This document shows positions 14,569-31,912 of a DNA stretch of 64,000 nt, piece by piece (the first letter of the stretch is position 1; the number at the start of each line of letters is the position of its first letter). The stretch lies in the NCBI GenBank assembly GCA_003331605.1, contig QOPD01000002.1:54188-118187 (forward strand), in the 5' to 3' direction. The DNA comes from SAR86 cluster bacterium. GTDB taxonomy: Bacteria; Pseudomonadota; Gammaproteobacteria; Magnimaribacterales; TMED112. The position numbers and the translations under genes are program-made. The notes below the pieces were generated by a model. The model saw only the letters and a list, made by a program, of their open reading frames with translations. It searched no databases and was not told the origin of the DNA.

Positions 14569-15595
14569 TATAAGATTTAGAATTAATTGCAGTTGAAGTA
14601 AGGTTATAAATGGCATTATAGCCTCGAACCTCTCCAAGAAAATTGTTAGATTTTGCATACGCTAAAAGCATAGCATCGTACCCAAGGGCATAGCTCCTAG
14701 CTTTTCTTAAGTCATAACCAAAATTATTTTTATCTGCAAGCCCAAAAACTAAAATATTATGTAATGCAATTTCATTTGTATCTAAGGAATCTGCAAGCCC
14801 GTACGTTAATGTTGAGATCTCATATCCAAGACCATAGTTGAATCTAATATTTGAAGCAATTTCATAGATTTCATCTACTTCTTGGGGAAATAAGACTACG
14901 TGTTCAATGTCATCTCTAGACCTTGGGATTGACTTTAATTCAGAAAAGCTTGCTTGATCAATTTGTTTTATTCTGTTAGTGCTGTCTGATACTCCAAGAA
15001 TTTCTTTAACCTGATTTGAATTTGTATTTGATTTTAGAAAAATATATTCCAAGTCTAAATTTAGTTTCTTTATCTTATTTAAAGCATCTTTACCTGCTAC
15101 CATTATTTTTTTATTCTTGGTTTGCATTAGATAGTTTTTTAAAGCATTGATTTGAGAGATTGAGTTAGATGACAAAAATAAATTTTTTTGAGCTAGCCCC
15201 ATAAGAATTAAGTTTTCATTTTTCCCTTTGGAATCGAATTGTTCAACTAAGTTTGGTTTAAATGGACCAACTATAAAACTATCTGTTTTCAGATTGTTGG
15301 CATTCAGCTCACTTAAAAAAATTATTTCAGTTGTATTTTTTAGGTCTCTGGATGCATGCAGGATGCCGAGTTGAAAATAGGTATTAAAGTACTCAAATTC
15401 ACTTGGATCCGGAATTAGAAAAGTAAAATCCTGCTGAATAGCGTTAAAATTAGCCTGAGAAAATTGTGTAATACCAATGAAACCCAAAGCATCTTTTGAC
15501 TCTAAATATTTTTGATTTTCGTTTCCTTTCTGCGCACTGGAGCAAGCAGAGATAAAGATAATATGGAATACTATAATTAAAAATTTCTTCAACAT
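14561..15595 (-). CDS. lpoA: LpoA-like lipoprotein (penicillin-binding protein activator), short form
   Basis: LpoA is an outer-membrane lipoprotein that activates PBP1A. The 344-residue product has a lipoprotein signal ending in the lipobox ISAC-SS (about residues 15-19), then a periplasmic-binding-protein-like region. The C-terminal YALGYDAMLLA resembles the ARGVDANRL-type end of LppC/LpoA. E. coli LpoA has 678 residues; the N-terminal TPR-like domain seems to be missing. It is divergent from rsmI, as in other gammaproteobacteria, and the two start codons share the sequence CATG. Gene symbol is assigned by context and family, not by strong identity. Confidence 0.75.
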   Translation of the reverse strand: MLKKFLIIVFHIIFISACSSAQKGNENQKYLESKDALGFIGITQFSQANFNAIQQDFTFLIPDPSEFEYFNTYFQLGILHASRDLKNTTEIIFLSELNANNLKTDSFIVGPFKPNLVEQFDSKGKNENLILMGLAQKNLFLSSNSISQINALKNYLMQTKNKKIMVAGKDALNKIKKLNLDLEYIFLKSNTNSNQVKEILGVSDSTNRIKQIDQASFSELKSIPRSRDDIEHVVLFPQEVDEIYEIASNIRFNYGLGYEISTLTYGLADSLDTNEIALHNILVFGLADKNNFGYDLRKARSYALGYDAMLLAYAKSNNFLGEVRGYNAIYNLTSTAINSKSYIN

Positions 15596-16427
15596 GATTT
15601 TTTATATTATACCCACACCCATCGGCAATCTTGATGATTTGTCTAATAGGGCATTGAAAATATTGTCTAAACTAGACTTTTTGGTTGTAGAAAATTTTTC
15701 AATTACCAGAAAACTTCTAAATCATTACTCAATAAATATTCAAAACGTCATAACTTATAACGACCACTCCAATGATCGCGTAAGAAATAAAATTTTTAAT
15801 AATTTAAAAAAAGGGTTGGTTGGTGGTCTAGTATCTGATTCTGGCACGCCATTAATATCTGATCCTGGATTTAAATTAATCCAAACACTCGCAGAGAATA
15901 ACATTGACATTGTCAGCATTCCAGGACCTAGTTCAGTTACATCTGCTTTGGCAGGAAGTGCTTTGCCTACAGATAGTTTCCAATTTCTGGGATTCTTCCC
16001 TAGAAAAGATAAAGATAAAAAAATGATTGTGAAAACTATTGAAAGATTTGCTGGTACAAGTATTTTTTTTGACTCTCCAAAAAGGTTATTAAAGAATTTA
16101 GTTTGGCTTCAAAATAATTCAGATTTTAATGAATCAGACATCTCAATAGTAAAAGAAATTTCAAAACTTAATGAAAAATTTATAAGAGGAAAAGGCAGTC
16201 AAGTAGTTGAGAAGATTACTAAAATTAATGATTTTTTTAAAGGAGAATTTGTTGTATTGATTAAGCCAATTAAAAAAGAAGAGCAAGAATTAAAGTTAGA
16301 ACAATTCTATATGTATTTTTCTGAATTTGTGCCCAGTAAAGATTTAATAAATGCTGTGCACCTGATTACAGGAGAATCAAAAAATAAGATATATAAGTTA
16401 TTTTTAGCACTTGCATCAAAAGATTGA
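15594..16427 (+). CDS. rsmI: 16S rRNA (cytidine1402-2'-O)-methyltransferase RsmI
   Basis: RsmI adds the 2'-O-methyl group to C1402 in the ribosomal P site; RsmH, encoded 1.4 kb downstream, adds the N4-methyl to the same base. The 277-residue protein has the tetrapyrrole-methylase-like fold with PTPIGNLDDLSNRAL at residues 8-22, SDSGTPLISDPGF near 82, and PGPSSVTSALAGSALP near 107. Length is close to the 286 of E. coli. The ATG is chosen because the protein reads MIFYIIPTPIGNL, the normal family start. rnpB begins about 12 bp after the stop. Confidence 0.95.
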   Translation: MIFYIIPTPIGNLDDLSNRALKILSKLDFLVVENFSITRKLLNHYSINIQNVITYNDHSNDRVRNKIFNNLKKGLVGGLVSDSGTPLISDPGFKLIQTLAENNIDIVSIPGPSSVTSALAGSALPTDSFQFLGFFPRKDKDKKMIVKTIERFAGTSIFFDSPKRLLKNLVWLQNNSDFNESDISIVKEISKLNEKFIRGKGSQVVEKITKINDFFKGEFVVLIKPIKKEEQELKLEQFYMYFSEFVPSKDLINAVHLITGESKNKIYKLFLALASKD

Positions 16428-16431
16428 TAAT
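16426..16431 (+). promoter_or_regulatory. Candidate -10 for rnpB
   Basis: GATAAT (five of six matches to TATAAT) lies about 7 bases before the predicted 5' end of RNase P RNA and overlaps the rsmI stop region. The -35 region is not convincing. It is placed where a promoter would be expected, but AT-rich DNA makes chance matches common. Confidence 0.3.
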
Positions 16432-16438
16432 ATATCTA

Positions 16439-16768
16439 CCGAGTTGGTCGAGCTATCGCTTAATTTTTAAGAGGAAAGTCCGGACTTCAAAGAGCAAGGT
16501 GCCAGCTAACAGCTGGGGAGCGTGAGCTTACGGATAGTGCAGCAGAAAATATACCGCCATTTTGGTAAGGGTGAAAAGGTAAGGTAAGAGCTTACCGCTC
16601 AAACGAAAGTTTGAGGCAGTGCAAACCCCACTTGAAGCAATGCCAAGTAGAGATTAAATTGTGTTGCTCGCACATAATCAGGGTAGGCAGCATGAATGTT
16701 TTGGTGACAAAACATCAAGATAAATGATAGCTAAAAACAGAATCCGGCTTATAGACCAACTCGATTCT
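16439..16768 (+). ncRNA. rnpB: RNase P RNA, bacterial type A
   Basis: This is the catalytic RNA that matures tRNA 5' ends. The ends pair as helix P1 (CGAGTTGGTC at 16440 with GACCAACTCG ending at 16763). Conserved core segments are present in order: GAGGAAAGTCCGGAC, AAGGTGCCAG, AGTGCAGCAGAAA, CCGCC, GGTAAGGGTGAAAAGGT, GGTAAGAGCTTACCGC, CAGTGCAAACCCC, CAAGTAG, GGGTAGGC, GATAAATGATAG, ACAGAATCCGGCTTAT. The length of about 330 nt fits type A. The rsmI-rnpB order is known from other gammaproteobacteria such as Pseudomonas. ftsZ starts about 20 bp downstream and I see no terminator between. Exact ends are uncertain by a few bases. Confidence 0.95.
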
Positions 16769-16786
16769 CTCATCTAGAATTTATAT

Positions 16787-17881
16787 ATGACATGGCAAAT
16801 TCTTGATTCTAATTACGAGCAAGCAAAAATCGCAGTTATAGGAATTGGAGGCGGAGGCGGAAATGCTATTCAGCACATGATAAGTTCAGGCATAAAAGGC
16901 GTTGAGTTTATATGTGCAAATACTGATTCTCAAGCTTTAAGTATGATACATAATGCTAAAACTATTAAGCTTGGCAACGACTTAACTAAAGGGCTTGGAG
17001 CAGGCAATAACCCTGAAGTTGGGAAGCAAGCCACAGAACTTAGCCGTCAAGAGATTATTGACAACCTTGCTAATACTGAAATGTTATTTATTGCAGCTGG
17101 AATGGGGGGTGGTACTGGCACTGGAGGGGCACCAGTAATTGCAAAGATCGCCAAGGAATTAAATATCCTTACAGTTGCGGTAGTAACAACTCCATTTAAA
17201 ACAGAAGGTCAGAAACGAGCCAGTCAGGCAAAAAATGGAATTTCAAGTTTAATAGAAAATGTAGACTCTCTTATTGAAGTTGACAATGAAAAAGTTTTTG
17301 AAATCTTTCCTCCAGAAACTCCAATAGAAAAAGCATTTACAAAAGTAAATGATGTCTTAATGAATGCGGTTAAAGGCGTTGCAAATATAGTTTTGAAGCC
17401 TTCAAAAATAAATGTGGATTTTGCAGATGTTTTAGCTGTAATGTCACAAAAAGGGATGGCACTAATGGGGTATGGTTCTGCAGATGGAGAAGATAGAGCA
17501 CCTAAGGCTATTTATGAAGCATTGAATAATCCTTTTTTTGACAGAAACGAAGTTAAAAATGCAAAAGGGTTGCTGGTAAATGTTTGTGCTTCATCCAGCA
17601 TTACACAGAAAGAACTTAGAGATATTCTTGAGGAAGCTTCATCTATTGGGCAAGATGGCGTAGAGGCAATTCCTGGATTAACCATTGACGAATCCTTCGG
17701 AAATACTATTAGTGTAATAATTATAGCTACTGGCTTAAGGAGATTTAATTTAGGTGACTTTCAAAGACCTAAAGTTTTTACAACAAGAGCAAACAATGAA
17801 AATTTAAGTGATGACTTCCTAGATCTTGATCAGTTAAAAAGAGCAAACCTTAGTGAAGTTTTAGGGAGATTAAAAAATTAA
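16787..17881 (+). CDS. ftsZ: Cell division GTPase FtsZ, displaced to head of dcw cluster
   Basis: FtsZ is the tubulin homologue that forms the Z ring. The 364-residue protein has GIGGGGGNAI (near residue 20), ANTDSQAL, the GTP-binding signature GGGTGTG in AAGMGGGTGTGGAP (near 105), and the T7 loop NVDFADV. The C-terminal conserved peptide is unusual: DDFLDLDQLKRANLSEVLGRLKN has no IPAFLR-like core. In most gammaproteobacteria ftsZ follows ftsA. Here it sits between rnpB and rsmH, where mraZ normally lies, and ftsA is followed by rpsF. The start gives the expected short N terminus. A TATATATG stretch upstream could hold a weak promoter, otherwise it may be read through from rsmI/rnpB. Confidence 0.97.
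   Translation: MTWQILDSNYEQAKIAVIGIGGGGGNAIQHMISSGIKGVEFICANTDSQALSMIHNAKTIKLGNDLTKGLGAGNNPEVGKQATELSRQEIIDNLANTEMLFIAAGMGGGTGTGGAPVIAKIAKELNILTVAVVTTPFKTEGQKRASQAKNGISSLIENVDSLIEVDNEKVFEIFPPETPIEKAFTKVNDVLMNAVKGVANIVLKPSKINVDFADVLAVMSQKGMALMGYGSADGEDRAPKAIYEALNNPFFDRNEVKNAKGLLVNVCASSSITQKELRDILEEASSIGQDGVEAIPGLTIDESFGNTISVIIIATGLRRFNLGDFQRPKVFTTRANNENLSDDFLDLDQLKRANLSEVLGRLKN
17863..17868 (+). promoter_or_regulatory. Shine-Dalgarno sequence for the ATT start of rsmH
   Basis: AGGGAG lies inside the last codons of ftsZ and ends 8 bases before ATT 17877. This is good spacing and one of the stronger Shine-Dalgarno matches in the cluster. It supports the non-canonical rsmH start, since no ATG, GTG or TTG in the rsmH frame is near it. 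The only nearby ATG (17884) is in another frame and closes after nine codons. Confidence 0.65.
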
Positions 17882-18770
17882 ACATGTTCCAGTTTTATTC
17901 AATAAGGCTGTAGAAAGTCTAGTTCAAAATGCTGATGGCAATTATGTTGACTGCACATTTGGACAAGGAGGTCATTCAAAAGAAATACTGCGTACACTTA
18001 GCTCTAAAGGAAATTTAAATGCATTTGATTTAGATGAGCTTGCTGAAGTTGAGGCTAAGAAAATTAAAAACCCAAATTTCTCCTTCCATAAAACTAATTT
18101 TAAAAACATAGGAGATTACTTTAATGATGATGAACTAGATGGGATTCTTATTGATTGTGGTGTTTCATCTCCACAAATTGATGAACCTTCTCGAGGCTTT
18201 AGCTTCATGAGGGATGGACCACTAGATATGCGATTTGGAAAACAGGTGAAGTTGTCCTGCGAAAGTATCATAAATAATTATGCTTACAAAGATCTTGTAA
18301 GGATTTTTAAAGAGTATGGGGAAGAGACTGAATCTAAGAGAATCGCTAGAGAAATTGTAGCCAAAAGAGAACAAGATAGAATTATCTCAACCAAACAGTT
18401 ATCAAACCTTATAGAAAATATAAAAAAAATTAAAACTAAAAAAAATCCCTCCACTAAGGTATTTCAAGCTTTAAGGATGGAGGTTAATCAGGAGCTTGAT
18501 AACTTAAAAATATGCCTTAGCAGGGCAAAGAGACTTTTAAAGAAGAATGGGAGGTTGGTTGTTATTTCTTTCCATTCTCTTGAAGATCGGATTGTAAAGA
18601 ATTATTTTAAAACGGAAGAACGGCTACACGAAAAAGACATACCATTATTAAGTGAACAGGTGCAAAAAAAGAAATTTTTAGTAAGCAGTGTGATCACACC
18701 GGAGGAGTCTGAATTAGTTTCAAATGTAAGAGCAAGAAGTGCAAAAATGAGAGTAGTGACAAAATTATGA
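17877..18770 (+). CDS. rsmH: 16S rRNA (cytosine1402-N4)-methyltransferase RsmH, ATT start
   Basis: RsmH N4-methylates C1402 in the P site. The ORF track gives only 187 residues from ATG 18207, but that would remove the SAM-binding region. Upstream in frame the sequence reads KHVPVLF, then DCTFGQGGHSKEIL and LIDCGVSSPQID, all canonical RsmH. The frame opens after a TAA at 17871, and the only plausible initiator before HVPVLF is ATT 17877, giving 297 residues (E. coli 313) and the normal M-K-H-V-P-V start. It overlaps the end of ftsZ by 5 bp. Downstream motifs RGFSFMRDGPLDMRF, FQALRMEVNQEL and VISFHSLEDRIVK are intact. Start-codon identity is inference; the gene identity is certain. Confidence 0.9.
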   Translation: MKHVPVLFNKAVESLVQNADGNYVDCTFGQGGHSKEILRTLSSKGNLNAFDLDELAEVEAKKIKNPNFSFHKTNFKNIGDYFNDDELDGILIDCGVSSPQIDEPSRGFSFMRDGPLDMRFGKQVKLSCESIINNYAYKDLVRIFKEYGEETESKRIAREIVAKREQDRIISTKQLSNLIENIKKIKTKKNPSTKVFQALRMEVNQELDNLKICLSRAKRLLKKNGRLVVISFHSLEDRIVKNYFKTEERLHEKDIPLLSEQVQKKKFLVSSVITPEESELVSNVRARSAKMRVVTKL

Positions 18771-19018
18771 AACATACTAGAGTGTCTTTTTTTGTATTGA
18801 TGGTTTTCCTGGGAGGGGTTGCTTTTATAAAAGCCAAACTTGTATTTGAATATAAAAGACAATTTCTATATCTAGCTCAAATCCAAAATGAAATCGATAG
18901 GCTTGAAAATGAAAATACTAAGCTAAACCTTGAACTTTCTTTGCTTAAGTCATCCCCCTATGTTTTACAATCTGCAGCAAGCCTGGGCATGAAGAGAATC
19001 GAGCAGCTTAATGAATAA
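18767..19018 (+). CDS. ftsL: Cell division protein FtsL
   Basis: FtsL is a small bitopic protein that forms the FtsQLB complex with FtsB and FtsQ and activates FtsWI. The 83-residue product has one membrane helix near the N terminus (VSFFVLMVFLGGVAFIKA). A leucine-zipper-like coiled coil follows (IQNEIDRLENENTKLNLELSLLKS), then the C-terminal AASLGMKR segment typical of FtsL. Overlaps of 4 bp with rsmH and 8 bp with ftsI indicate translational coupling. Low sequence conservation is normal for this family; position settles the call. Confidence 0.9.
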   Translation: MKHTRVSFFVLMVFLGGVAFIKAKLVFEYKRQFLYLAQIQNEIDRLENENTKLNLELSLLKSSPYVLQSAASLGMKRIEQLNE

Positions 19019-20597
19019 AATCAGATTTATTTTTGCAGTCGTTTTATTTCTCTTAGCAACTCCGTTTTATAAATTTTTTGAGCTTGACCAAGATAAAGAT
19101 AGGTATTTAGTGGCAGGAAAATCAAGATCTCAGTTTAATGAAACAATAAATTTTCCACGAAAAAAAATTCTAGATAGAAATGGTAATGAGCTTGCTGTTA
19201 GCATCCTTAGATCAACTTTGCTTTTTCGATCAGCAGAAGAAAAAGATCTTGGTCTAGCATATGCTGAAAGAGTTAATGAGCCCATTTTTTTATTTAACTC
19301 GAAAAGAATTTATTTTGAAAATCAGCTAACTCCGGTTTTTATCAAAGAACTTAGAGAGTTTTGTGATTGCTCTGTTATATCGGAGCCTGTATATAGAAGA
19401 TACTACCCTTATGGCAGTATTATCAGTCCTCTAGTTGGTTTTTCTGGAGTAAGCGGAGGGCTTGAAGGTATAGAGAGATCTTTCGATGCATCACTTAAGT
19501 CTGATCAAAGAAGTTTAAATTTTTTTCGAGATGCTAAAGGGCGAAGAGTTAAAGGCGACCTTAAGAATTTTATTGAGAGGTCAAGTCAGAATGATCTAAG
19601 TTTAACTATTGATATAAATTTACAATTCAAACTTTTCGAGGAATTAAAGAAATCAATTTCTGCTGCATCAGCAAAAGGGGGGTTTGCAGTTATTATGGAT
19701 GCTCGCAGCGGAGATCTTCTAGCTCTTGTAAATTATCCTACATTTAATCCCAATAGATCTGATAGAGTTATCCAAAGAAACTTATCGTTTGATGAGTACT
19801 TAGAACCAGGCTCACTTATTAAACCAATCACAATTGCAGGTGCTTTCAATAACGGAATAATAAATGAAGACTCTTTAGTTGATACAAATCCTGGATATAT
19901 AAATTTGTCTGGATTCAAAAGAAGTGAGGCTGGAGGAAAAAATTATGGGGTTTTAAGCCCTTCTGAAATTATTTCAAACTCCTCTCAAGTAGGTATAGCA
20001 AAAATTTCCATCATGTTGTCAGGCGACCAAATCAATGCAAATCTTAGAAGCTTTGGTATTGGCAAAGAGTTGGATTTAAATTGGCATGGAATTGATTCCA
20101 GTTTTTTATACGATAGCTCAATTCTATATGATATTGATAAAGCCTCTTTAGGATATGGTTATTTATTGCGGGCGAATATTGTTCAGATAGCAAAAGCATA
20201 TTCTGCATTTGCTAACCAAGGGGAAATAGTTGAGCCGAGAATTACCATTAACCAACCAGTTAGAAAATCAAAAGCAATAGATAGCAAAACAGCAGATTAT
20301 ATCTTAGCTTCCTTAAGATCAACTGTCGTTGAAGGAACTGCAGAAAATATTTCAGATTCAACCGTAAGTATCGCTGGAAAGACAGGGACTACTGAAAAAT
20401 ATATTGTCGGAAATGGATATACCCCTGGCAAATACATTTCTAGTTTTGCTTCTATTTTTCCTTATGAGAGCCCAAAATATATAATGGTTGTTTCTATTGA
20501 TGAGCCTGACCCAAATAATTATTTTGGGGGCGACATTTCAGCTCCAATTGTGGCTACTTTAGCAGAACATATGTTGATTAATGGCTATATAGAATAA
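19011..20597 (+). CDS. ftsI: Peptidoglycan transpeptidase FtsI (PBP3)
   Basis: FtsI is the septal D,D-transpeptidase partner of FtsW. The 528-residue protein has an N-terminal membrane anchor (about residues 5-22) and a class B dimerisation domain with RKKILDRNGNELAVS and RRYYPYGSIISPLVGF. The transpeptidase domain shows SxxK as EPGSLIKPI, SxN as SNSSQVG and KTG as AGKTGT, so it should be active. Length is slightly less than the 588 of E. coli. The start overlaps ftsL and the stop is followed by murE after 13 bp. Confidence 0.96.
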   Translation: MNKIRFIFAVVLFLLATPFYKFFELDQDKDRYLVAGKSRSQFNETINFPRKKILDRNGNELAVSILRSTLLFRSAEEKDLGLAYAERVNEPIFLFNSKRIYFENQLTPVFIKELREFCDCSVISEPVYRRYYPYGSIISPLVGFSGVSGGLEGIERSFDASLKSDQRSLNFFRDAKGRRVKGDLKNFIERSSQNDLSLTIDINLQFKLFEELKKSISAASAKGGFAVIMDARSGDLLALVNYPTFNPNRSDRVIQRNLSFDEYLEPGSLIKPITIAGAFNNGIINEDSLVDTNPGYINLSGFKRSEAGGKNYGVLSPSEIISNSSQVGIAKISIMLSGDQINANLRSFGIGKELDLNWHGIDSSFLYDSSILYDIDKASLGYGYLLRANIVQIAKAYSAFANQGEIVEPRITINQPVRKSKAIDSKTADYILASLRSTVVEGTAENISDSTVSIAGKTGTTEKYIVGNGYTPGKYISSFASIFPYESPKYIMVVSIDEPDPNNYFGGDISAPIVATLAEHMLINGYIE

Positions 20598-20610
20598 ATT
20601 TCAAGTAATT

Positions 20611-21975
20611 ATGATTTATGTAGATCATTCTAATGACATAGAGCCAGACTCTATTTTTATATCAATTAATAAAGGCTACAAACATCTTTCGGCTAAAGAA
20701 ATTGAATTGGTATCTGAGATATGGTCTTCAGAATCGACAACAATCAATTTGGATAAAGTAAAAGTAATTCCATATCTGGATTCTAAAGTGCTACAAATTA
20801 TAGAAGATGATTATGGGCTTGTATTAGAGGATTTTGAAAATTTTTTCATAACGGGCACAAATGGCAAAACAACATCTGCTCAATTTGTATCCCAAATACT
20901 AAATATCAACAACATAAACAACGGTGTAATGGGAACACTGGGATGCTATATAAATGGCAAAAATATTGCCTCTCAAAGGCTAACCACAGAAACCCCTATT
21001 TATATCAGAAATTTCCTTAAGAAATGCCTAGATAGAAATACAACGAAAATTATTTATGAGGCCTCATCAATTGGTATCGAAAGCAATAGACTCGAGGGAC
21101 TTAGCATCGATCATTCTGGCTTTACCAACTTTACTAGGGATCATTTGGATCACCATAAAAATATGCCTAATTATCTTAAAGCCAAATTAGAGCTAGTAAA
21201 AAATACGAAGAATTCTTTCACATACAATCTTGATGATGATAGTTCAAATAATTGGATCAAAGCTTTTTCTGGCGAAAGTAAATTTTCTATTTCTTGCATT
21301 AAGCCAAGTGCTGACATCTTCTTTTCAGTTAGAAAAATATATAGTGATGGGAAAATTGCATTTGATATATATAGTCCATGGGGCTCCTCTGAGGGCTGTG
21401 CCCCAGTTTTCACAGATTTTAATTTAGTTAATATTTTTATTGGGTTGCCATTTCTAATGCACCAAGGACTAGCATTTGATTCGTTTATTTCTTCATTAAG
21501 TTTAATAAACTTACCCACTGGTAGGCAGAAGCTAATTAAATATAAATCTAATAAAATTTTTATTGACTATGCTCATACCCCTGATGCAGTAGAAAAACTT
21601 TTATCTGGGCTATCTAGATTAAAGTCTGTAAAGACAACATTAATTATTGGAGCAGGTGGGAATAGAGATCATGGTAAACGTTCGTTAATGGGAAGTATCT
21701 CGTCAAAATATGCAAATCATATTATTATCACTTCCGATAACCCTAGAGGAGAAGATCCACAACTAATTGCAGATATGATTGCAGAGGGAATAGAACAAAC
21801 AGCTTCTTATGAAGTAATATTAGACCGAGCAAAAGCAATCACAACAGCAATAAAAAAATTAACATGCGATGAGACTTTAGTAATAATTGGGAAAGGGCAT
21901 GAAGATTATCAAATAATTGGAAATAAAAGGTTCCATTTCTCAGACGAAGAGGAAGTAAATAAATGTATTACGTAG
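20611..21975 (+). CDS. murE: UDP-MurNAc-tripeptide synthetase MurE
   Basis: MurE adds the third stem-peptide residue. The 454-residue protein carries the Mur ligase P-loop GTNGKTTSAQ (near residue 87), TNFTRDHLDHH, YAHTPDAVEKLL and the C-terminal DNPRGEDP. The DNPR motif marks meso-diaminopimelate as the substrate, as expected for a gram-negative. The N-terminal UDP-binding domain is short and divergent compared with E. coli (495 residues). It overlaps murF by 13 bp. Confidence 0.95.
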   Translation: MIYVDHSNDIEPDSIFISINKGYKHLSAKEIELVSEIWSSESTTINLDKVKVIPYLDSKVLQIIEDDYGLVLEDFENFFITGTNGKTTSAQFVSQILNINNINNGVMGTLGCYINGKNIASQRLTTETPIYIRNFLKKCLDRNTTKIIYEASSIGIESNRLEGLSIDHSGFTNFTRDHLDHHKNMPNYLKAKLELVKNTKNSFTYNLDDDSSNNWIKAFSGESKFSISCIKPSADIFFSVRKIYSDGKIAFDIYSPWGSSEGCAPVFTDFNLVNIFIGLPFLMHQGLAFDSFISSLSLINLPTGRQKLIKYKSNKIFIDYAHTPDAVEKLLSGLSRLKSVKTTLIIGAGGNRDHGKRSLMGSISSKYANHIIITSDNPRGEDPQLIADMIAEGIEQTASYEVILDRAKAITTAIKKLTCDETLVIIGKGHEDYQIIGNKRFHFSDEEEVNKCIT

Positions 21976-23120
21976 CAGGATTAAAATCAAAAAATGAGTA
22001 TGCAGAGTTTCTTCAAGGCAAGACGACAGGAAAAGATATCGTCATTGATGGCATATCTTTTGATTCAAGAACTGTAAAAAAAAATCAATTATTTGTACCT
22101 TTAGAAGGAAAAAGTTTTTCTGGTTTTTCATTTATTGATGAAGCAATAAAGAAAGGTGCTGTTGTTTTGTCAAATAAATGCCATTCAGAAAATTGTATTC
22201 AGGTAGAAGACGTTTACTCTTCATTGGTTCTGTTGTGTCAGAAACATATTGAGGAGCTGGGAGTCAAATTGATTTTAATAACCGGAAGTTATGGTAAGAC
22301 AACTATAAAGGATATGTTGAGGCATTCCATTGGTTCTGCATGTCACACAAATAAATTAAACGAAAATAATGAATTTGGTATTCCTTTTACAATTTTAAGT
22401 TGCGATGCACATTCTGATTATTTAGTTGTTGAATGTGGCGCAAGAAATGTTGGTGATTTTGACCTTCTTGCAGAACATCTTAAATCTGATGTCTTTATTT
22501 TGACAGATGTTGCTGCAGTGCATCTTGAGACCTTTAAAACAATTGAGAATATCGAAAAAACAAAGCTCAAACTAAAGAAAACACTTAAGGAAAAGAGTAT
22601 TTTTATTGATGGAAGGCAGCTTAATTATTTGAATTATCAAGAAAAAAATAATCATATCGTCGAGAGTGTGATTAACAAGTTAAATATCTCTAAAGAGAGA
22701 GAGATAAATAGCTACCAACCGTCACAAGGTAGAGGAAAAATTATTAAGACTATGGGGGGAAGCATAATTGATCAAACATATAACTCCAGTCCCAGCACAT
22801 TGATTGCTACACTGATTCCTTATAGCAATAAAAATACTTCTTTGATTTTAGGAGATATGGCTGAGCTTGGTGACTCTGAGCTAGATGAGCATATAAAGGT
22901 TCTGGATCATTTTCACGATTACAAAGTTTGGGTAACAGGACCAATATTTAAGCAAGCCATTGCTAAAACAAAGTCAAAAAATGTTAATTATTTTGAAAAT
23001 GAGCATGAGTTTCCCAGAGCTGCATTTCGATTATTATTGCAAAATAATGAAAATTTATATTTTAAAGGCTCGCGATCATCTAAAATGGAAAGATTCATCG
23101 AACTATTGCTAAATGATTGA
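21963..23120 (+). CDS. murF: UDP-MurNAc-pentapeptide synthetase MurF
   Basis: MurF adds D-Ala-D-Ala to the UDP-MurNAc-tripeptide. The 385-residue protein has FDSRTVKKNQLFVPLEG in the N domain, the P-loop TGSYGKTTIKDML (near residue 108), NNEFGIPFTIL and a compact C-terminal domain with LILGDMAELGD. It is shorter than E. coli MurF (452 residues) but retains each landmark. Start and stop overlap murE (13 bp) and mraY (8 bp). Confidence 0.95.
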   Translation: MYYVAGLKSKNEYAEFLQGKTTGKDIVIDGISFDSRTVKKNQLFVPLEGKSFSGFSFIDEAIKKGAVVLSNKCHSENCIQVEDVYSSLVLLCQKHIEELGVKLILITGSYGKTTIKDMLRHSIGSACHTNKLNENNEFGIPFTILSCDAHSDYLVVECGARNVGDFDLLAEHLKSDVFILTDVAAVHLETFKTIENIEKTKLKLKKTLKEKSIFIDGRQLNYLNYQEKNNHIVESVINKLNISKEREINSYQPSQGRGKIIKTMGGSIIDQTYNSSPSTLIATLIPYSNKNTSLILGDMAELGDSELDEHIKVLDHFHDYKVWVTGPIFKQAIAKTKSKNVNYFENEHEFPRAAFRLLLQNNENLYFKGSRSSKMERFIELLLND

Positions 23121-24195
23121 GTATTTTTTGGACCTTTTCCCCGCAAGAGATGGCATCTTTAATGTTTTAGCTTACTTGTCTTCACGAACCATAATTTCAA
23201 CTCTTACAGGATTATTTGTTGTGCTTTTTTTTGGAGACAGATTTATTTCCTTAATAAAAAATATTCAGTTTAATCAAAGCTTTGATGGAAGAGCTCCAGA
23301 AACACATCGGCAAAAAGGTGGTACACCGACAATGGGCGGGTTATTGATAGTTGGAAGCGTTATTCTATCTGGTTTGCTTTGGGGTGACCTCTCAAATAAA
23401 TACGTACTGTTGGGATTATTCTGCCTTATTTCTTTCGCAGGTATTGGAATTGTCGATGATTATAAAAAGATTAAAGACCCAGGCTCGAAAGGTCTTTCTT
23501 CGTTAACGAAGATATTTTATCAAATAGTTTTTGCTTCAATAATTGCTCTTGCTCTTTTTATGAGTGCTAAGGTTCCAAATGAAACAATATATATCGTTCC
23601 TTTTTTTAAAGACATAATTTTAGATTTTGGGATTGTATTTGTACTTATTTCAATTTTTATTATTGTCGGCAGCTCTAATGCTGTAAACCTTACTGATGGT
23701 TTGGACGGCCTTGCAATACTCCCGGTGATAATAATTACAATTGCACTTGGAATAATTGCTTGGGCAGCAGGCAATGTCATAGCAGCTGATTATCTATACA
23801 TACCTTATTTAGAAACTACTGGCGAGTTATTAGTTCTTTGTGGGGCATTAGCAGGAGCAGGCATTGGTTTTCTGTGGTTTAACTCTTACCCTGCTCAAAT
23901 TTTTATGGGAGATGTTGGGTCTCTGTCTATGGGTGCTTTCATTGCTTTTGTGGCAATAGTTGTGCGTCATGAAATAGTTTTTGCGGTTATGTCTGCTGTT
24001 TTTATCATGGAAGCAATGAGCGTGATTCTTCAAGTGAGCTCGTTTAAGCTCAGAAAAAAAAGAATCTTTAAAATGGCTCCTATCCATCATCATTTTGAAT
24101 TAAGCGGATGGAAAGAGCCAAAAATTATTGTGCGCTTTTGGATCCTAACAATTATTTTTGTATTGATAGGACTGTCATTGTTGAAAATACGATGA
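23113..24195 (+). CDS. mraY: Phospho-MurNAc-pentapeptide translocase MraY
   Basis: MraY makes lipid I by moving phospho-MurNAc-pentapeptide onto undecaprenyl phosphate at the inner membrane. The 360-residue polytopic protein has KGGTPTMGGL, the catalytic Asp pair DDYKK, the NLTDGLDGLA motif, GDVGSLSMGA and the histidine cluster PIHHHFELSGW. All match active MraY, including length. It starts within the last codons of murF and ends in ATGA shared with murD. Confidence 0.97.
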   Translation: MIEYFLDLFPARDGIFNVLAYLSSRTIISTLTGLFVVLFFGDRFISLIKNIQFNQSFDGRAPETHRQKGGTPTMGGLLIVGSVILSGLLWGDLSNKYVLLGLFCLISFAGIGIVDDYKKIKDPGSKGLSSLTKIFYQIVFASIIALALFMSAKVPNETIYIVPFFKDIILDFGIVFVLISIFIIVGSSNAVNLTDGLDGLAILPVIIITIALGIIAWAAGNVIAADYLYIPYLETTGELLVLCGALAGAGIGFLWFNSYPAQIFMGDVGSLSMGAFIAFVAIVVRHEIVFAVMSAVFIMEAMSVILQVSSFKLRKKRIFKMAPIHHHFELSGWKEPKIIVRFWILTIIFVLIGLSLLKIR

Positions 24196-25262
24196 ATGAA
24201 AGACGGGTAATATTAGGCTATGGTCTTACAGGAAAATCATTCGAAAAGTTTTTAATTAAAAAAAAATTAGAATATTTTTTATATGATGATAAGCACCCCG
24301 ATGGCGGCAAATCCAATGATGTAGGAAATAAATTTATATCAAAATCTGAATTAGTTAAATTTGATACATTTTATGTTTCTCCAGGCTTCAGTAAAAAAAA
24401 GCTTAATGAGCTAGGAGTGCTAGATAAAAATTTACTCACGGACATAGATATTTTTTTTAGTCTTAACCAATCATTTAAAATAGGAATAACTGGAACTAAT
24501 GCAAAGAGCAGCCTTACACACTATCTTACGCAGATTTTGAATAGCAGATCTACAGCTATAAGTCTGGGCAATATTGGAAAACCCTTACTAGAAAACCTTG
24601 ACCATACGCATAAATATAGTGTTATTGAACTATCCAGTTTCCAACTTGAAAAGATGCAAGGAAATGAACTTAATCTATCTGTAATAACAAACATTTCAAA
24701 AGATCATATTGATTATCATGGAGATTTTGAGTCATATAAGTCCTGCAAGTTTAAGATTATGAAAACAAAAACATTTTTTTATAATGATGAATATCAGCTT
24801 CAGGATTTTGCATTTTCAATCGCAAAATCATTGGAACCAAATACTGATAAAAAATTAAAATTGAATGAACTACCTTTTCGACTGCAACCACTTTCTAAAA
24901 ATATAATTAATGACTCAAAATCTACGAACTCTTCATCTTTGTATTATGCTATTGAAAAGCTTAATTTTTCTGGTGTTTTGATTATGTGTGGAAATCCCAA
25001 CAAAGAAAATTATCAAAATCTAATCATTAATGGCCCAGCTAAAGTTTTAATTTTTGGAAAACACAGGGAAGATATAAAAAAAAGAATCATCCATAACAAT
25101 ATTAAGCTTTATAGCTCATTAGAATCATTAGTCTCCTCTTTGGATACCAATGATCAGATCTTATTTTCCCCTGGCAATCCAAGTGGTGATGATTTTTCAA
25201 ATTTCACGGAAAGGGGTGAGCATTTTTCCAAGATCATTGAGGTTCACTTTGATAAAAAATAA
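24192..25262 (+). CDS. murD: UDP-MurNAc-L-alanine:D-glutamate ligase MurD, compact with variant P-loop
   Basis: MurD adds D-glutamate to UDP-MurNAc-L-Ala. I chose ATG 24192 (ATGA overlap with mraY) because the protein then reads MNERRVILGYGLTGKSF, the normal MurD start; the track start at 24108 lies inside mraY. The length of 356 residues is well below the 438 of E. coli. The P-loop reads GTNAKSSLT where the family has GTNGKST, a Gly to Ala change. Other landmarks remain: SSFQLEKM, TNISKDHIDYHG, NDSKSTNSSS and a C-terminal FSPGNPSGDDFSNFTERG. No other murD is visible, so it is presumably functional. Confidence 0.92.
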   Translation: MNERRVILGYGLTGKSFEKFLIKKKLEYFLYDDKHPDGGKSNDVGNKFISKSELVKFDTFYVSPGFSKKKLNELGVLDKNLLTDIDIFFSLNQSFKIGITGTNAKSSLTHYLTQILNSRSTAISLGNIGKPLLENLDHTHKYSVIELSSFQLEKMQGNELNLSVITNISKDHIDYHGDFESYKSCKFKIMKTKTFFYNDEYQLQDFAFSIAKSLEPNTDKKLKLNELPFRLQPLSKNIINDSKSTNSSSLYYAIEKLNFSGVLIMCGNPNKENYQNLIINGPAKVLIFGKHREDIKKRIIHNNIKLYSSLESLVSSLDTNDQILFSPGNPSGDDFSNFTERGEHFSKIIEVHFDKK

Positions 25263-26370
25263 GAATGAATTATTTGATAGATACTTGGTCTTACCATTCT
25301 TGGCCCTAACTTGTTTGAGCCTGGTTTTTATATACTCATCCTCGAATGTAATGGCAAATGAAATTTATTCTGATCCATACTTTTTTTTTAAAAGACAGCT
25401 TTTTGCAATAAGTATTGCTCTCATTGCTTCAGTAATATTTTTATTTATTCCAACCTCTTTTTACCGAGAAAATGGAGCAATTTTAGTTATCGTATCAATA
25501 TTGCTATTATTTGTTGTGGCATTGCCTTTTATTGGGACAGAAGTAAATGGAAGTAGACGATGGCTCAATCTTAGGATATTCAATCTTCAGCCTTCAGAAG
25601 TAGCAAAGATATTTATTCCCATATACCTATGTGGCTATTGTTTACGCAGAAAAGAGCAGCTAGAGACAAAATGGAGGGGTTTCTTGAAGCCACTTATTTT
25701 GGTAGCAATATGCTGCCTTCTTTTACTGCTTGAGCCTGATGTCGGGGCAACAGCAGTGCTATTTGCAGTATCAATAATTATTCTATTTCTTGGGGGAGCG
25801 AAAACTTCACAGCTAATTATGCTGGCATTTATATTTTTTGCTCTTATTTCTACTTTTGTTTACTTTGATGAAGAAAGATTTTCAAGAGTTCTTAGTTTTT
25901 CCGATCCGTTTGATGACCCTTTTGGCACCGATTATCAGCTCCTTAACGCCCTAATTGCTTCAGTTCAAGGTGGCATATTTGGTATGGGTGTGGGAGAGAG
26001 TACACAGAAATATTTCTTTTTACCAGAAGCGCATACAGATTTCATCTTTTCTATTTATATTGAAGAATCAGGAATTTTGGGTTTAATTATATTGACTGTA
26101 ATTTACGGTGTAATTTTATTTAGATTATTTTCATTAGTAAAAGAATCTGCAAAAAAGAATTTTTTCTTTATACATCTACTTATCAGTAGCTTTTTCTTAA
26201 TATTTTTTATACAAACTTTGCTAAATATTTTTGTGAATTTAGGCATTTTGCCTACAAAAGGTTTGGCATTACCATTTATGAGTTATGGAAGATCAAGCGT
26301 TATTATGAACTTTATAGCACTTGCCATTACCCTAAGAGCAAGTTGGGAGCTAAAAAATAATATCAGATGA
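25249..26370 (+). CDS. ftsW: Septal peptidoglycan polymerase FtsW
   Basis: FtsW is the SEDS glycosyltransferase that works with FtsI. The product is multi-pass, with NGSRRWLNLRIFNLQPSEVAK, LLEPDVGAT, LIASVQGGIFGMGVG, EAHTDFIFS and the C-terminal TKGLALPFMSYGRSS, all diagnostic. The track start at 25150 overlaps murD by over 110 bp. TTG 25249 is a better start because GAGG lies 6 bases ahead and it gives MIKNKNELFDRYLVLP before the first helix (373 residues). Overlaps murD by 14 bp and murG by 4 bp. Confidence 0.95.
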   Translation: MIKNKNELFDRYLVLPFLALTCLSLVFIYSSSNVMANEIYSDPYFFFKRQLFAISIALIASVIFLFIPTSFYRENGAILVIVSILLLFVVALPFIGTEVNGSRRWLNLRIFNLQPSEVAKIFIPIYLCGYCLRRKEQLETKWRGFLKPLILVAICCLLLLLEPDVGATAVLFAVSIIILFLGGAKTSQLIMLAFIFFALISTFVYFDEERFSRVLSFSDPFDDPFGTDYQLLNALIASVQGGIFGMGVGESTQKYFFLPEAHTDFIFSIYIEESGILGLIILTVIYGVILFRLFSLVKESAKKNFFFIHLLISSFFLIFFIQTLLNIFVNLGILPTKGLALPFMSYGRSSVIMNFIALAITLRASWELKNNIR

Positions 26371-27368
26371 AAGTAGCAATTTTTGCAGGAGGAACAGCCG
26401 GTCACATTTTCCCAGGTATTTCAATAGCAGAAAAGTTTAGCAAAGAAGAAGTAATTTTCTTTTGCTCTTCAAGAAAGCTAGAAAAAGAAATCTTTTCAAA
26501 TTTAGGATATCGGGCAATACATCTGAATATTGATGGTTTCAGAGGAAAATCATTAACTCAAAAAATTCTTTGGCCATTTAAACTTGCTAATTGTTGTTTG
26601 AAAGCATTTACTCTCGCAAAGAAATATAAAGTTGATCGCGTATTATTGATGGGAGGCTATGTTTCAATAATTGGTTGGATCCTTTCTAAAGTAAAAAAAT
26701 TAAAGCTTTATATTCATGAGCAGAACTCAATTCTTGGAAGTGCAAATAAGCTGGCTTATAAATCTTCAATCACTATATTTACTAGCCATTTGTTAAATCT
26801 GCCTAATGAGAAATTAACTGGCAATCCAATAAGAAACAATTTTTTGAATAAAAATTACGATGCAAATGAAAATCGTAACAAAGTTTTAATTTTTGGAGGC
26901 AGCCAAGGATCAAGATATTTTGTTGAGAATTTAGCTAGTACATTAGATTCAATAATTAAAGAAAGCCAAATTATTTTTCAAACTGGAGGAAATCAGCCAA
27001 AATTTAAAAGCGATAATATTGTTTATAAAGAATTTATAGATGATCTTCCTAGCCTTTTTGATGAAGTAAAGTTTGTTATATGTCGATCAGGAGCAACAAC
27101 CGTTGCTGAGATTCAGTCATATGGCATGCCTGCAATCTTTATTCCTTTGAAAAACTCAATTGATAATCATCAACTTCTCAACGCTAAAGCTGCATGCCTT
27201 GAGGGGGGTGGAATGGTAGTTGAAGAAGGCGAGAGTACTACAGAAGATCTAATTGCTGCAATTGGCGAACTCCAATCAAGTGATTTAACCCAAATGAGCA
27301 AAAAGATGAAGAAAGATATACACTTTGAAGCTGCGGAAATAATAGCAAATGAAATTAAGCAGAATTAA
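26367..27368 (+). CDS. murG: Lipid II synthase MurG
   Basis: MurG adds GlcNAc to lipid I on the inner face of the membrane. The 333-residue GT-B protein has the N-terminal GGTAGHIFPG loop, HEQNSILGSANKLA, the second glycine-rich loop FGGSQGSRYF and the UDP-GlcNAc-binding C-domain stretch CRSGATTVAEIQSYGMPAIFIPL. Slightly shorter than the 355 of E. coli but complete. The start overlaps ftsW (ATGA) and the end overlaps murC by 20 bp. Confidence 0.96.
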   Translation: MKVAIFAGGTAGHIFPGISIAEKFSKEEVIFFCSSRKLEKEIFSNLGYRAIHLNIDGFRGKSLTQKILWPFKLANCCLKAFTLAKKYKVDRVLLMGGYVSIIGWILSKVKKLKLYIHEQNSILGSANKLAYKSSITIFTSHLLNLPNEKLTGNPIRNNFLNKNYDANENRNKVLIFGGSQGSRYFVENLASTLDSIIKESQIIFQTGGNQPKFKSDNIVYKEFIDDLPSLFDEVKFVICRSGATTVAEIQSYGMPAIFIPLKNSIDNHQLLNAKAACLEGGGMVVEEGESTTEDLIAAIGELQSSDLTQMSKKMKKDIHFEAAEIIANEIKQN

Positions 27369-28737
27369 ACATATTCATTTTATTGGTATTGGTGGCGTAG
27401 GAATGGTAGGGATTGCAGAAATTCTTATCCAGCAGGGTTATAAAGTCACAGGAAGTGATTTGGTGGAAAATAAAAATACTGAGAGACTAAAAGCACTTAA
27501 AGCAAAAATTTCAATTGGGCATCAAGCAGGCAATGTTGGCAATGCAGATGTGGTAGTTTATTCATCTGCTGTAAATGCCAAAAACCCTGAGATGGTAGAA
27601 GCAAAGTTAAAAGGCAAAATTATTATCCCAAGAGCAGAAATGCTTTCAAGCCTAATGAAGGGGTATCAAAGCATTGCCGTTGCTGGCTCACATGGAAAAA
27701 CTACAACTACCAGCTTAATTGCTAACATTTTTTCAGATGCGGAATTTGATCCAACATATATTATTGGAGGGAAAATTCTTGGGAAAGAGGAAAGAAGTAT
27801 TTTAGGAAGCAGTGATTTTATTATTGTCGAAGCAGATGAAAGCGATGGCTCTTTTTTGCATCTAAATCCTGAAATAAGTGTTTTGACAAATATAGATAAC
27901 GATCATTTAGATTTTTATGACAACAAAACAAGCAAATTAGAAAAAACATTTTTAAATTTTATGGAAAAACTGCCTTTTTTTGGAACTGCAGTAATTTGTA
28001 CCGACTGTTCAAAAGCAAAGAAATTATTCAAAAAGATATCTAGACCAAAAATCTCATATGGTTTTAATAAAACAGCAGATTATCAGATAGTAAAAAGGGA
28101 TCAGCATGAGCAATATCAAGCCTTTACTTTGCTAGAAAAAAAATTGAACAAAGAAACTAAATTTAAGTTGAAGATTCCGGGCCAGCATAATGCATTAAAT
28201 TCTGTTGCTGCATTTATTGTTTCAAATCTTGCGGGCATAAAATCAAGCATTGCTAAGGAATCGCTTGAGAAATTTACTGGTGTTTCAAGAAGATTGGAGC
28301 CAAAAGGTCTGTTAAGCATTGCAAAAAAAACTACTTATCTTTTAGATGATTATGGCCATCACCCCACCGAAATTAAAGCAACAATATCAGCAGTAAGGCA
28401 AAGCCATAAAGGAAAAAAGATTAATATGATTTTTCAACCACATAGGTACAGCAGATCTACATTATTGTTTGATGATTTCATTGATGCCTTGTCTAACGTA
28501 GATAAGCTAATAGTTATGGATATTTACTCTGCAGGAGAGGACAACCCTAACAACATATCATCCTATGATTTTGTTAACAGTTTGCTTAAAAAAAATATAA
28601 AAGTTTTTCATGGCAAAAACCTTACAGAGATTTCAAAAATACTAGAGGAAAATATTTCAGATAATGAAATATTAATAACTCAAGGAGCTGGGAATGTTGC
28701 AGACATTTCTAACTCCCTTGTGGCGATGTATAAATGA
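27349..28737 (+). CDS. murC: UDP-MurNAc-L-alanine ligase MurC
   Basis: MurC adds L-alanine to UDP-MurNAc. The 462-residue protein has the N-terminal HFIGIGGVGMVGIAEIL loop, the P-loop SHGKTTTTSL (near residue 114), EADESDGSFLHL, TNIDNDHLDFY, DDYGHHPTEI and FQPHRYSR. Length and motifs are complete. The ATG lies 20 bp inside murG. murB, present after murC in some bacteria, is not in this window. Confidence 0.96.
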   Translation: MKLSRIKHIHFIGIGGVGMVGIAEILIQQGYKVTGSDLVENKNTERLKALKAKISIGHQAGNVGNADVVVYSSAVNAKNPEMVEAKLKGKIIIPRAEMLSSLMKGYQSIAVAGSHGKTTTTSLIANIFSDAEFDPTYIIGGKILGKEERSILGSSDFIIVEADESDGSFLHLNPEISVLTNIDNDHLDFYDNKTSKLEKTFLNFMEKLPFFGTAVICTDCSKAKKLFKKISRPKISYGFNKTADYQIVKRDQHEQYQAFTLLEKKLNKETKFKLKIPGQHNALNSVAAFIVSNLAGIKSSIAKESLEKFTGVSRRLEPKGLLSIAKKTTYLLDDYGHHPTEIKATISAVRQSHKGKKINMIFQPHRYSRSTLLFDDFIDALSNVDKLIVMDIYSAGEDNPNNISSYDFVNSLLKKNIKVFHGKNLTEISKILEENISDNEILITQGAGNVADISNSLVAMYK

Positions 28738-29612
28738 GAAAAATAATTATTGTTTATGGTGGTGAATCCAATGAAAGTGACATCTCCAAAAAAACTGCTC
28801 AGTCAATCTTTGAAAATATAGATAGATCACAATTTCTTCCACATTTAATAAACTATTCAAGTATCAATTTTGATGAGTATGATCAAGATTGTTTTTTCTT
28901 TATCGCTATTCATGGCAAAGGTGGAGAGGACGGTGAAATTCAGGAAATTCTTGAAAGTAGAAAATTTGTTTTTTCAGGATCAGGATCAGCGGCAACAAAA
29001 AAATGTTGGAATAAAAAAATTTCAAAAAGGCTAATGGAAGAAAATCAAATACCAACACCAAAATTTATAGTTTGCTCAAACGAAATTGACCTTCAAAACG
29101 AGTTTATTCTCTCAGAAAAAAAATTCTTTATAAAACCTGCTACCAATGGCTCAAGTTTTGGAGTAACAAAGGTTGAAGATAAGGCAAATATCAATAAGGC
29201 CATAAGTGAAGCACTATCCTATTCAGAAGAGGTAATTATTGAAAAGGCTTTTTCTGGCCCTGAGTATACTGTCTCTGTACTAGGGTCAGATATTCTTCCT
29301 CCATTGGAAATAATCCCATATGGAAATGAATTCTATAATTTTTCTGCTAAATATAGCTCTAATGAAACAAAAAAAATCATGGTAACTGATCCACAAATAA
29401 GAGGAGAGCTTAGCGAAATTGCCTATAAAGCCTTTCATGCTCATGGCTGCTCTTCGTGGGCTAGAATTGATATTGTTTCAGAGGATGATAATTTTAGTGT
29501 TCTAGAAATAAATACCGTACCAGGATTTACAGAGAAAAGCCTATTTCCCTTCTCAGCAAAACTTGCTGGCATAGACTATAAAGAATTAATAACTAGGATA
29601 ATTGAAAATTAA
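28734..29612 (+). CDS. ddl: D-alanine-D-alanine ligase
   Basis: Ddl makes the D-Ala-D-Ala dipeptide used by MurF; alr at 33.7 kb supplies D-Ala. The 292-residue ATP-grasp protein has YGGESNESDISKKTA at the N terminus, IHGKGGEDGEIQ, FIKPATNGSSFGV, and the metal site ARIDIVSEDDNFSVLEINTVPGFTEKS. It is slightly short (E. coli DdlB 306). Overlaps murC by 4 bp and ftsQ by 11 bp. Confidence 0.95.
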   Translation: MRKIIIVYGGESNESDISKKTAQSIFENIDRSQFLPHLINYSSINFDEYDQDCFFFIAIHGKGGEDGEIQEILESRKFVFSGSGSAATKKCWNKKISKRLMEENQIPTPKFIVCSNEIDLQNEFILSEKKFFIKPATNGSSFGVTKVEDKANINKAISEALSYSEEVIIEKAFSGPEYTVSVLGSDILPPLEIIPYGNEFYNFSAKYSSNETKKIMVTDPQIRGELSEIAYKAFHAHGCSSWARIDIVSEDDNFSVLEINTVPGFTEKSLFPFSAKLAGIDYKELITRIIEN

Positions 29613-30228
29613 ATTTCATAGTTTCATATTCTTGTTGGTGGCCGTTCTTCAATCTTATCAGTTGAACACAAAGGATAAATTTTCAACTGTGCTTTATGTG
29701 CAAAATGAAAGTATTTGTTCAGATTGTATACTTCAGTTAAAAAATCACTTTTACAAATACCCAAAAAATTTTGAAATATTTTTATCAACCAAGAGCTGGG
29801 TGAGAAGCTACTTTATTAGTTCGACTCATAATCTGCAAACCTACCACGTTATTATCAAAGAACCCTTTGTAAAGAAATCTGAGGGAATCTACTTTGATAC
29901 AAATTTAAATTTATTTCATCTCCCCTTTAATGGAAAACTGCCATCTTTTGATTTTGAAGATGCATTAACTAAAGAGGATATTGCGGAGCTTAACCAAATT
30001 CTAAATCTGAAATTAACTCAACACCTTTTGCATATTGCATGGACAAAAATGTTTGGGTGGGAGCTTACTTATAATTTCGGGGTAGTTTTAATTGGGAAGA
30101 AAAATTTTATTAAAAAAATAAGTAAGCTAGAAAAAATACTTGAAGAAAAATGTTGCGATGAGTTGAACAGGGTAATTCTGGATTTAAGATATGACAAAGG
30201 CTATGTAATAAAGAAGCTTGATGTTTAA
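29602..30228 (+). CDS. ftsQ: Cell division protein FtsQ, divergent and short
   Basis: FtsQ recruits FtsL and FtsB to the divisome. The 208-residue product begins at TTG 29602, inside the end of ddl. It has an N-terminal membrane helix (about residues 6-20) and a periplasmic region ending in LDLRYDKGYVIK, like the DLRY-containing C-terminal motif of FtsQ. E. coli FtsQ has 276 residues; the cytoplasmic N-terminal part is almost absent and the POTRA region is divergent, with unusual cysteines (ICSDC, EKCCDE). Identity depends on the C-terminal motif and on position between ddl and ftsA. Confidence 0.85.
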   Translation: MKIKFHSFIFLLVAVLQSYQLNTKDKFSTVLYVQNESICSDCILQLKNHFYKYPKNFEIFLSTKSWVRSYFISSTHNLQTYHVIIKEPFVKKSEGIYFDTNLNLFHLPFNGKLPSFDFEDALTKEDIAELNQILNLKLTQHLLHIAWTKMFGWELTYNFGVVLIGKKNFIKKISKLEKILEEKCCDELNRVILDLRYDKGYVIKKLDV

Positions 30229-31420: not shown

Positions 31421-31704
31421 TGCAAAACTACGAATTAATGTTACTTATGAACCCAAATATCAGCGATGAAGTTGATGAAATTTTGGATAACATTAAAAAA
31501 ACCATTTCTGATAATAAAGGTGATCTGGAAGAAGTAAAATTACTTGGAAAAAGACAACTTGCATACCCAATAAACAATATGAATTATGCAAATTATGTTC
31601 ACCTTAATGCAAAAATTAATGCAGAAACTCTAGTGGTTTTAGAGGAAATGTTTAAATTTGAGCAGAACATATTCAGACACCTAACTGTAAAAATTGGTAA
31701 ATAA
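31420..31704 (+). CDS. rpsF: 30S ribosomal protein S6
   Basis: S6 forms a heterodimer with S18 on the 30S platform. The 94-residue product shows [37 protein letters not shown] and the C-terminal [12 protein letters not shown], all typical. It lacks the acidic C-terminal extension of E. coli S6. Its ATG overlaps the ftsA stop by one base, so it has no leader and cannot carry the S6:S18 regulatory structure found in front of rpsF in many bacteria. Confidence 0.97.
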
Positions 31705-31705
31705 T

Positions 31706-31912
31706 ATGAGTGACGAAAAGAAAATAAATTTTGATTATAAGGATGCTGATTCATTAAGGCCTTTTATCTCTGAGAATGGAAAAATTCTATCGACAAGATA
31801 TACCAGGCTAAATGCCAAGCAACAAAGAAAACTCAATACTGCTATTAAAAGAGCTAGAGTGCTCGGAATTATCCCATTTACAGATAAACACAAGATAGAA
31901 GAGAGCCAATGA
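31706..31912 (+). CDS. rpsR: 30S ribosomal protein S18
   Basis: S18 is the partner of S6. ATG 31706 is chosen over the track's TTG 31694 because it falls one base after the rpsF stop and gives 68 residues beginning [14 protein letters not shown]. The core reads [42 protein letters not shown], which is diagnostic. The usual gammaproteobacterial N terminus with basic and cysteine residues is replaced by an acidic one. The stop overlaps rplI. Confidence 0.96.

Follow-up and report, generated by a model that had tools for sequence, protein, structure and literature searches.

A rebuilt head of the dcw cluster in SAR86, with ftsZ in the place of mraZ and a probable ATT start codon of rsmH

The dcw locus of the window

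The window analysed here, a 64,000-nucleotide stretch of a SAR86 genome, contains a dcw cluster in which ftsZ is the first protein gene. The genes of the locus are as follows:

15594–16427, + strand: rsmI, 16S rRNA C1402 2'-O-methyltransferase (TP_methylase domain; named from position and domain)
16440–16767, + strand: rnpB, RNase P RNA class A (Rfam RF00010, 313 bits, full length)
16787–17881, + strand: ftsZ, first protein gene of the dcw cluster (Pfam domains and order across relatives)
17877–18770, + strand: rsmH/mraW, 16S rRNA C1402 N4-methyltransferase (Methyltransf_5, full length)
18767–29612, + strand: ftsL-ftsI-murE-murF-mraY-murD-ftsW-murG-murC-ddl, in the standard order
29602–31420, + strand: ftsQ-ftsA, now the cluster end (FtsA domains; ftsQ by position, without a Pfam match)
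31420–32358, + strand: rpsF-rpsR-rplI, occupying the usual place of ftsZ-lpxC after ftsA

The open reading frame at 16787–17881 encodes 364 amino acids and matches the Pfam families Tubulin (PF00091, 3e-44) and FtsZ_C (PF12327, 4.9e-21). A Tubulin/FtsZ GTPase domain joined to an FtsZ_C domain, in single copy, identifies the product as a true division FtsZ. It is the only ftsZ match in the assembly, which is 97.5% complete at 0.94 Mb, and a search of the same assembly returned no match to MraZ. The lpxC gene is located on another contig, away from ftsZ, and the second, canonical ftsZ beside lpxC that the initial annotation had raised as a possible objection was not found.

The genes run in the order rsmI-rnpB-ftsZ-rsmH...ddl-ftsQ-ftsA-rpsF, with rsmI as the last gene 5' of rnpB, a place that it holds in all SAR86 families. 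While ftsL and ftsI were named by Pfam, murE to ddl were assigned from their order and their similarity to the genes of relatives. At the far end, ftsA (30218–31420) is followed by rpsF (31420–31704, S6 domain). The locus shares with the canonical dcw clusters of E. coli and Pseudomonas the same genes, the same strand and the same inner order from rsmH through ftsL-ftsI-murE-murF-mraY-murD-ftsW-murG-murC-ddl to ftsQ-ftsA. Unlike in the canonical cluster, where mraZ comes first and ftsZ directly follows ftsA, here ftsZ stands at the head, mraZ and its operator are missing, the rpsF block comes after ftsA and lpxC lies elsewhere. Domains and gene order thus bear out the initial annotation, which had placed ftsZ at the cluster head and rpsF behind ftsA and had noted the lack of mraZ. 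They equally show that ftsZ is now separated from ftsQ-ftsA, with the whole cluster lying between them.

Gene order across SAR86 families and beyond

We compared the locus across four families of the order (f1–f4), with the window belonging to f1. All f1 relatives with a contig spanning the locus share the gene order of the window, and a close relative (G008) has an FtsZ that is 86% identical to the one described here. This identical order in many independent genomes, including the single-contig G007 and G013, rules out a misassembly at the window junctions, which the initial annotation had considered, or a strain oddity. MraZ was found in none of 21 f1 genomes, whereas 38 of the 40 genomes from f2–f4 have it.

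In f3, the order is rsmI-rnpB-mraZ-ftsZ-rsmH...ddl-(ftsQ)-ftsA-rpsF, with ftsQ named by position. The f3 cluster resembles that of f1 in having ftsZ already 5' of rsmH; it differs in keeping mraZ and the repeats upstream of it, an ATG start of rsmH and an intact FtsZ tail (DVPTFMRKQVD). The f2 and f4 order is rsmI-rnpB-mraZ-rsmH-ftsL-(ftsQ)-ftsA-ftsZ-ftsI...ddl-rpsF, where ftsQ was again named by position. In these families (L082–L088), ftsL and ftsI flank the block ftsQ-ftsA-ftsZ, an order that amounts to a second, independent dcw rearrangement within SAR86.

A tree built from the concatenated mraY, murC, murG, ftsW, rsmH, ftsA and murE proteins, with four outgroups, grouped f1 with f3 (100/100) and f2 with f4 (99.9/99). 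The same family groupings are found in a published phylogeny, provided that the families correspond as we have matched them (PMC11582366); f1 is most likely CHAB-I-7/TMED112, which is sister to the Suzuki family in that study.

The simplest history starts from a SAR86 ancestor with a canonical cluster, followed by a move of ftsZ in f1 and f3, a separate move of ftsQ-ftsA-ftsZ in f2 and f4, and the loss of mraZ in f1. A single ancestral rearrangement for all SAR86 is unparsimonious, as f2 and f4 shifted ftsQ-ftsA-ftsZ whereas f1 and f3 kept ftsQ-ftsA in place. The initial annotation had ftsZ jump straight into the mraZ slot. This part of its account has to be revised, because f3 retains mraZ 5' of ftsZ (mraZ-ftsZ-rsmH), which places the ftsZ move first and the deletion of mraZ later. 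Judged by this comparison, ftsZ in f1 is best described as having inherited the slot of mraZ.

We propose that the head of the f1 cluster was rebuilt in two steps. In the first, ftsZ would have left the cluster end in the common ancestor of f1 and f3 and inserted between mraZ and rsmH. In the second, f1 would have deleted mraZ together with its GTGTG repeat operator and promoter, leaving ftsZ 19 nt behind rnpB. We assign a probability of roughly 0.7 to this two-step rebuild, including a probable leaderless promoter of ftsZ and the ATT start of rsmH, both of which are considered below.

Among 60 regions surveyed in other gammaproteobacterial families, 50 held ftsZ, which was located at the cluster end in 48 of them and early in the other two. 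An early ftsZ is therefore rare, not unique, and the exact f1 gene order appeared in no family but f1. The two early copies lie between ftsI and murE (L141, G089) and between rsmH and ftsI (L178, G102). Multicellular Neisseriaceae have also naturally lost mraZ from the start of the dcw cluster; unlike in f1, the loss accompanies a change in cell shape there, and the murC-ddl-ftsQ-ftsA-ftsZ sub-cluster is retained (PMC9395523). A literature search that covered few subscription papers found no description of the f1 arrangement or of an AUU start of rsmH, which is a weak sign of novelty.

The rnpB–ftsZ spacer and MraZ control

Three promoter-like elements were located around rnpB:

16426–16431, + strand: GATAAT, putative −10 for rnpB, which overlaps the stop codon of rsmI (consensus match only)
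16752–16757, + strand: TAGACC, candidate −35 of ftsZ in the 3' end of rnpB, 17 nt before the −10
16775–16780, + strand: TAGAAT, candidate −10 of ftsZ, 6 nt before the ATG, in a leaderless arrangement

The spacer between rnpB and the ftsZ ATG measures 19 nt in 14 of 15 f1 genomes and 20 nt in the remaining one. All 15 have a TANNNT box that ends 6 nt (once 7) 5' of the ATG; spacer positions −11, −9 and −7 are invariant, while positions −6 to −2 vary. Shine-Dalgarno energies of ftsZ are zero or positive throughout f1, meaning that the gene is without a Shine-Dalgarno sequence. In sequence it therefore bears the marks of a leaderless mRNA, namely a −10 about 6–7 nt before the start and no Shine-Dalgarno sequence. 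The candidate −35 matches the consensus at four of six positions; its spacing is conserved in f1, but the DNA of rnpB is conserved anyway for the RNase P RNA. When the region was scanned for promoters by a simple method, the hits did not clearly exceed those in shuffled sequences, so that the weight of the case for a leaderless promoter rests on conservation.

This conservation suggests that ftsZ in f1 has its own promoter and a leaderless mRNA. Transcription would probably start from a promoter with its −10 in the 19-nt spacer and, possibly, its −35 in the 3' end of rnpB. The leaderless ftsZ mRNA would then continue through rsmH and the remaining cluster genes, free of control by MraZ. The leaderless transcript, the initiation of rsmH at AUU and any change in protein dose, including the highest dose that the initial annotation attributed to ftsZ, are things we infer, whereas the gene order, the spacer element and the conserved ATT and Shine-Dalgarno sequence of rsmH are read directly from the DNA. 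Boxes of the form TANN(A/T)T also lie 6–7 nt before ATG codons at 5628, 10564 and 41694 (all on the − strand) in the window, suggesting that leaderless mRNAs may be used more widely in the source genome.

Alternatively, ftsZ might be without a promoter of its own and depend on read-through from the rnpB promoter, with its message cut free where the RNase P RNA is processed at its 3' end. The short distance of 19 nt between the two genes fits this explanation, as does the result that no terminator-like site was found behind rnpB on the + strand. It also agrees with the conserved −10-like element 5' of rnpB, which recurs as TGATAAT/TGATATTAT at equal distance in the f1 relatives. However, read-through leaves unexplained why the spacer keeps a −10-like box at the exact leaderless distance while the adjacent bases vary, and why ftsZ is without a Shine-Dalgarno sequence. 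We consider read-through somewhat improbable and favour a leaderless ftsZ promoter.

Repeat operators are known upstream of mraZ. In f2–f4, the gap between rnpB and mraZ contains GTGTGNAAAAGTGTG repeats, with tandem GTGTG repeats about 10 bp apart, which are probably MraZ boxes. In several f3 genomes, TTGCAA-17-TATATT-6-ATG is found 5' of mraZ. A search of the window for a GTGTG repeat operator gave no convincing match, and f1 thus lacks both the mraZ gene and the upstream repeats that define an MraZ-regulated dcw cluster. The earlier claim that MraZ control has been removed stands in so far as gene and operator are both gone. Its description of MraZ as a repressor, however, is not general, as the deletion of mraZ in Neisseria elongata lowers dcw gene expression (PMC9395523). 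The direction in which expression changes after MraZ loss is therefore unpredictable from sequence.

The probable ATT start of rsmH and the FtsZ tail

The junction between ftsZ and rsmH contains the following features:

17843–17878, + strand: C-terminal tail of FtsZ (ANLSEVLGRLKN), where the conserved DxPxF peptide is degenerate
17863–17869, + strand: AGGGAGA, Shine-Dalgarno sequence for rsmH within ftsZ (GGAG at 17865–17868, 8 nt before the ATT)
17877–17879, + strand: ATT start codon of rsmH, its last T shared with the TAA stop of ftsZ at 17879–17881

The first ATG in the rsmH frame lies at 18207, and the conserved beginning of RsmH (KHVPVL) and the SAM motif are encoded 5' of it. From the in-frame stop at 17871–17873 up to 18207, the frame contains no ATG, GTG or TTG. 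The corrected start is the ATT at 17877, about 330 nt earlier, which overlaps the ftsZ stop (ATTAA); the resulting frame encodes 298 amino acids, and the alignment with relatives begins at the first residue after the ATT. ATT occupies this place, with an in-frame stop a few codons upstream, in 16 of 16 f1 genomes, which are related and hence do not count as 16 independent observations. One of them (L007) has an extra TTG two codons 5' of the ATT. At the same place, all 13 f3 genomes have ATG, and f2 and f4 have TTG or ATG. Each of 59 rsmH genes from other gammaproteobacterial families has a standard start available (ATG in 52, GTG in five, TTG in two). As in genes of the infC type, f1 rsmH has AUU at its start and no standard start at hand. 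A general use of AUU in the genome found no support: of thirteen neighbouring genes compared in seven f1 genomes, all start with a standard codon except for one murD that could not be anchored, and infC in f1 starts with a conserved TTG. Profile and protein searches for infC (IF3) gave no match in G007 (single contig) or G004.

The Shine-Dalgarno sequence of rsmH has an anti-Shine-Dalgarno duplex energy of −7.6 in the window and −7.4 on average in f1, where all values are at or below −5.8. The f3 mean is −1.8, and random positions in ftsZ average −1.65, with 8% of them reaching −6. Several f1 species form the element with CGG, which makes up 1.7% of the Arg codons in a sample of window genes. 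Strong Shine-Dalgarno sequences also precede proS and yebC, which start with GTG. The ftsZ-rsmH junction is rigid in f1 (ATTAA(A/G)CA), whereas spacing and stop codons vary in f3, and the difference between the f3 junction GATTAAAATGCTTCAT and the f1 junction GATTAAACAT resembles a 6-nt deletion. The ancestral ATG of rsmH may have been lost in such a deletion, and rsmH would now be translated from the ATT, aided by a strong Shine-Dalgarno sequence that evolved inside the codons of the FtsZ tail. A FtsZ-RsmH fusion by −1 slippage was rejected, as rsmH lies in the +1 frame and the A-rich heptamer does not fit. The normal distance of the Shine-Dalgarno sequence speaks for initiation at the ATT rather than for a fusion by a +1 shift.

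A C-terminal peptide of the DIPxF type, which binds FtsA and ZipA, is typical of FtsZ, though not universal. The DxPxF peptide is absent from FtsZ in 15 of 15 f1 genomes and present in all 20 other SAR86 sequences examined. The f1 tail keeps a loose D/N-I/L-x-x-x-L/I/F-R-like pattern, with the Pro and Phe of DxPxF lost in all 15; the domain identity of FtsZ is independent of this peptide. Loss of ZipA was discarded as the cause, as ZipA is encoded in most f1 genomes, and FtsA is kept too. The Shine-Dalgarno sequence of rsmH occupies the same codons as the degenerate tail, and a conflict between the peptide and the ribosome-binding site is a possible cause of the change. In one f1 subclade (L070, L071 and L073, from G013, G016 and G004), FtsZ is 39–51% identical to that of the window, compared with 58–86% in other f1 genomes, while RsmH is not more diverged. 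The ftsZ frame of G016 is interrupted by stops, possibly through sequencing error.

Two explanations can be offered for the ATT. In the first, which we give an even chance, it is an evolutionary trap: after a small deletion had taken away the ATG, initiation passed to the ATT that GATTAA already contained, with a low output of RsmH tolerated and the Shine-Dalgarno sequence evolving to compensate. This explanation draws on the junction comparison described above, in which ATT and TAA share a T, and on the observation that, within the codons of the FtsZ tail, replacing ATG by AGG is the one change needed to yield AGGAGA (f3 compared with L013). An ATG in place of the ATT would abolish the stop codon of ftsZ; the ATT is thus locked, and it may have been conserved without being of use. 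The varied f3 junctions illustrate that an ATG could be regained through small indels, yet none of the 16 f1 genomes has taken this route.

In the second explanation, the AUU makes rsmH self-limiting, because methylation of C1402 at the P site would lead to poor AUU initiation, in a manner similar to the control of infC by IF3. In E. coli, loss of MraW (RsmH) or RsmI increases mis-initiation at AUU (PMC13317604, citing Kimura and Suzuki 2010), and RsmH loss raises initiation at non-AUG codons generally (PMC6821322). An AUU-started rsmH is therefore predicted to limit itself. A precedent is E. coli infC, which starts with AUU and is repressed by its own product IF3 (PMC5472188); infC and pcnB are described as the only two AUU-started genes in E. 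coli (PMC9410913). Feedback is also consistent with the rigid f1 junction, with a strong Shine-Dalgarno sequence compensating for the AUU, and with the retention of AUU in 16 of 16 f1 genomes even though RsmH identity to the window drops to 50–56%. Nevertheless, the overlap with the ftsZ stop can by itself account for this conservation, and the TTG start of infC indicates that AUU control is no general theme here. We regard self-limitation as doubtful, and the trap as at least as likely.

The rare start codon of f1 rsmH is conserved within its lineage, like those of E. coli infC (AUU, with IF3 feedback) and Streptomyces sigR (GTC). The infC product itself discriminates against its AUU start (PMC5472188, PMC9410913). 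Unlike infC and sigR, the f1 gene encodes an rRNA methyltransferase, and its putative start codon overlaps an upstream stop. It is a tentative and rather unlikely proposition that f1 rsmH adds to infC/IF3 a second bacterial homeostatic loop based on AUU, born of the ftsZ move and the overlap.

Of the results presented here, the AUU start of rsmH is more surprising than the relocation of ftsZ with the loss of mraZ. Gene callers that accept only ATG, GTG and TTG miss the true start of rsmH in f1, and an rsmH called from 18207 in the window would lack roughly 110 residues of its N-terminus, among them the SAM-binding motif. The AUU start also makes it testable whether the enzyme that methylates C1402 is under feedback from this methylation by way of AUU initiation. 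Within one marine order, the dcw cluster has been rebuilt in two ways, both of which shift ftsZ frontward, and living families record the steps. The f1 family provides a natural case in which mraZ and its operator vanished together.
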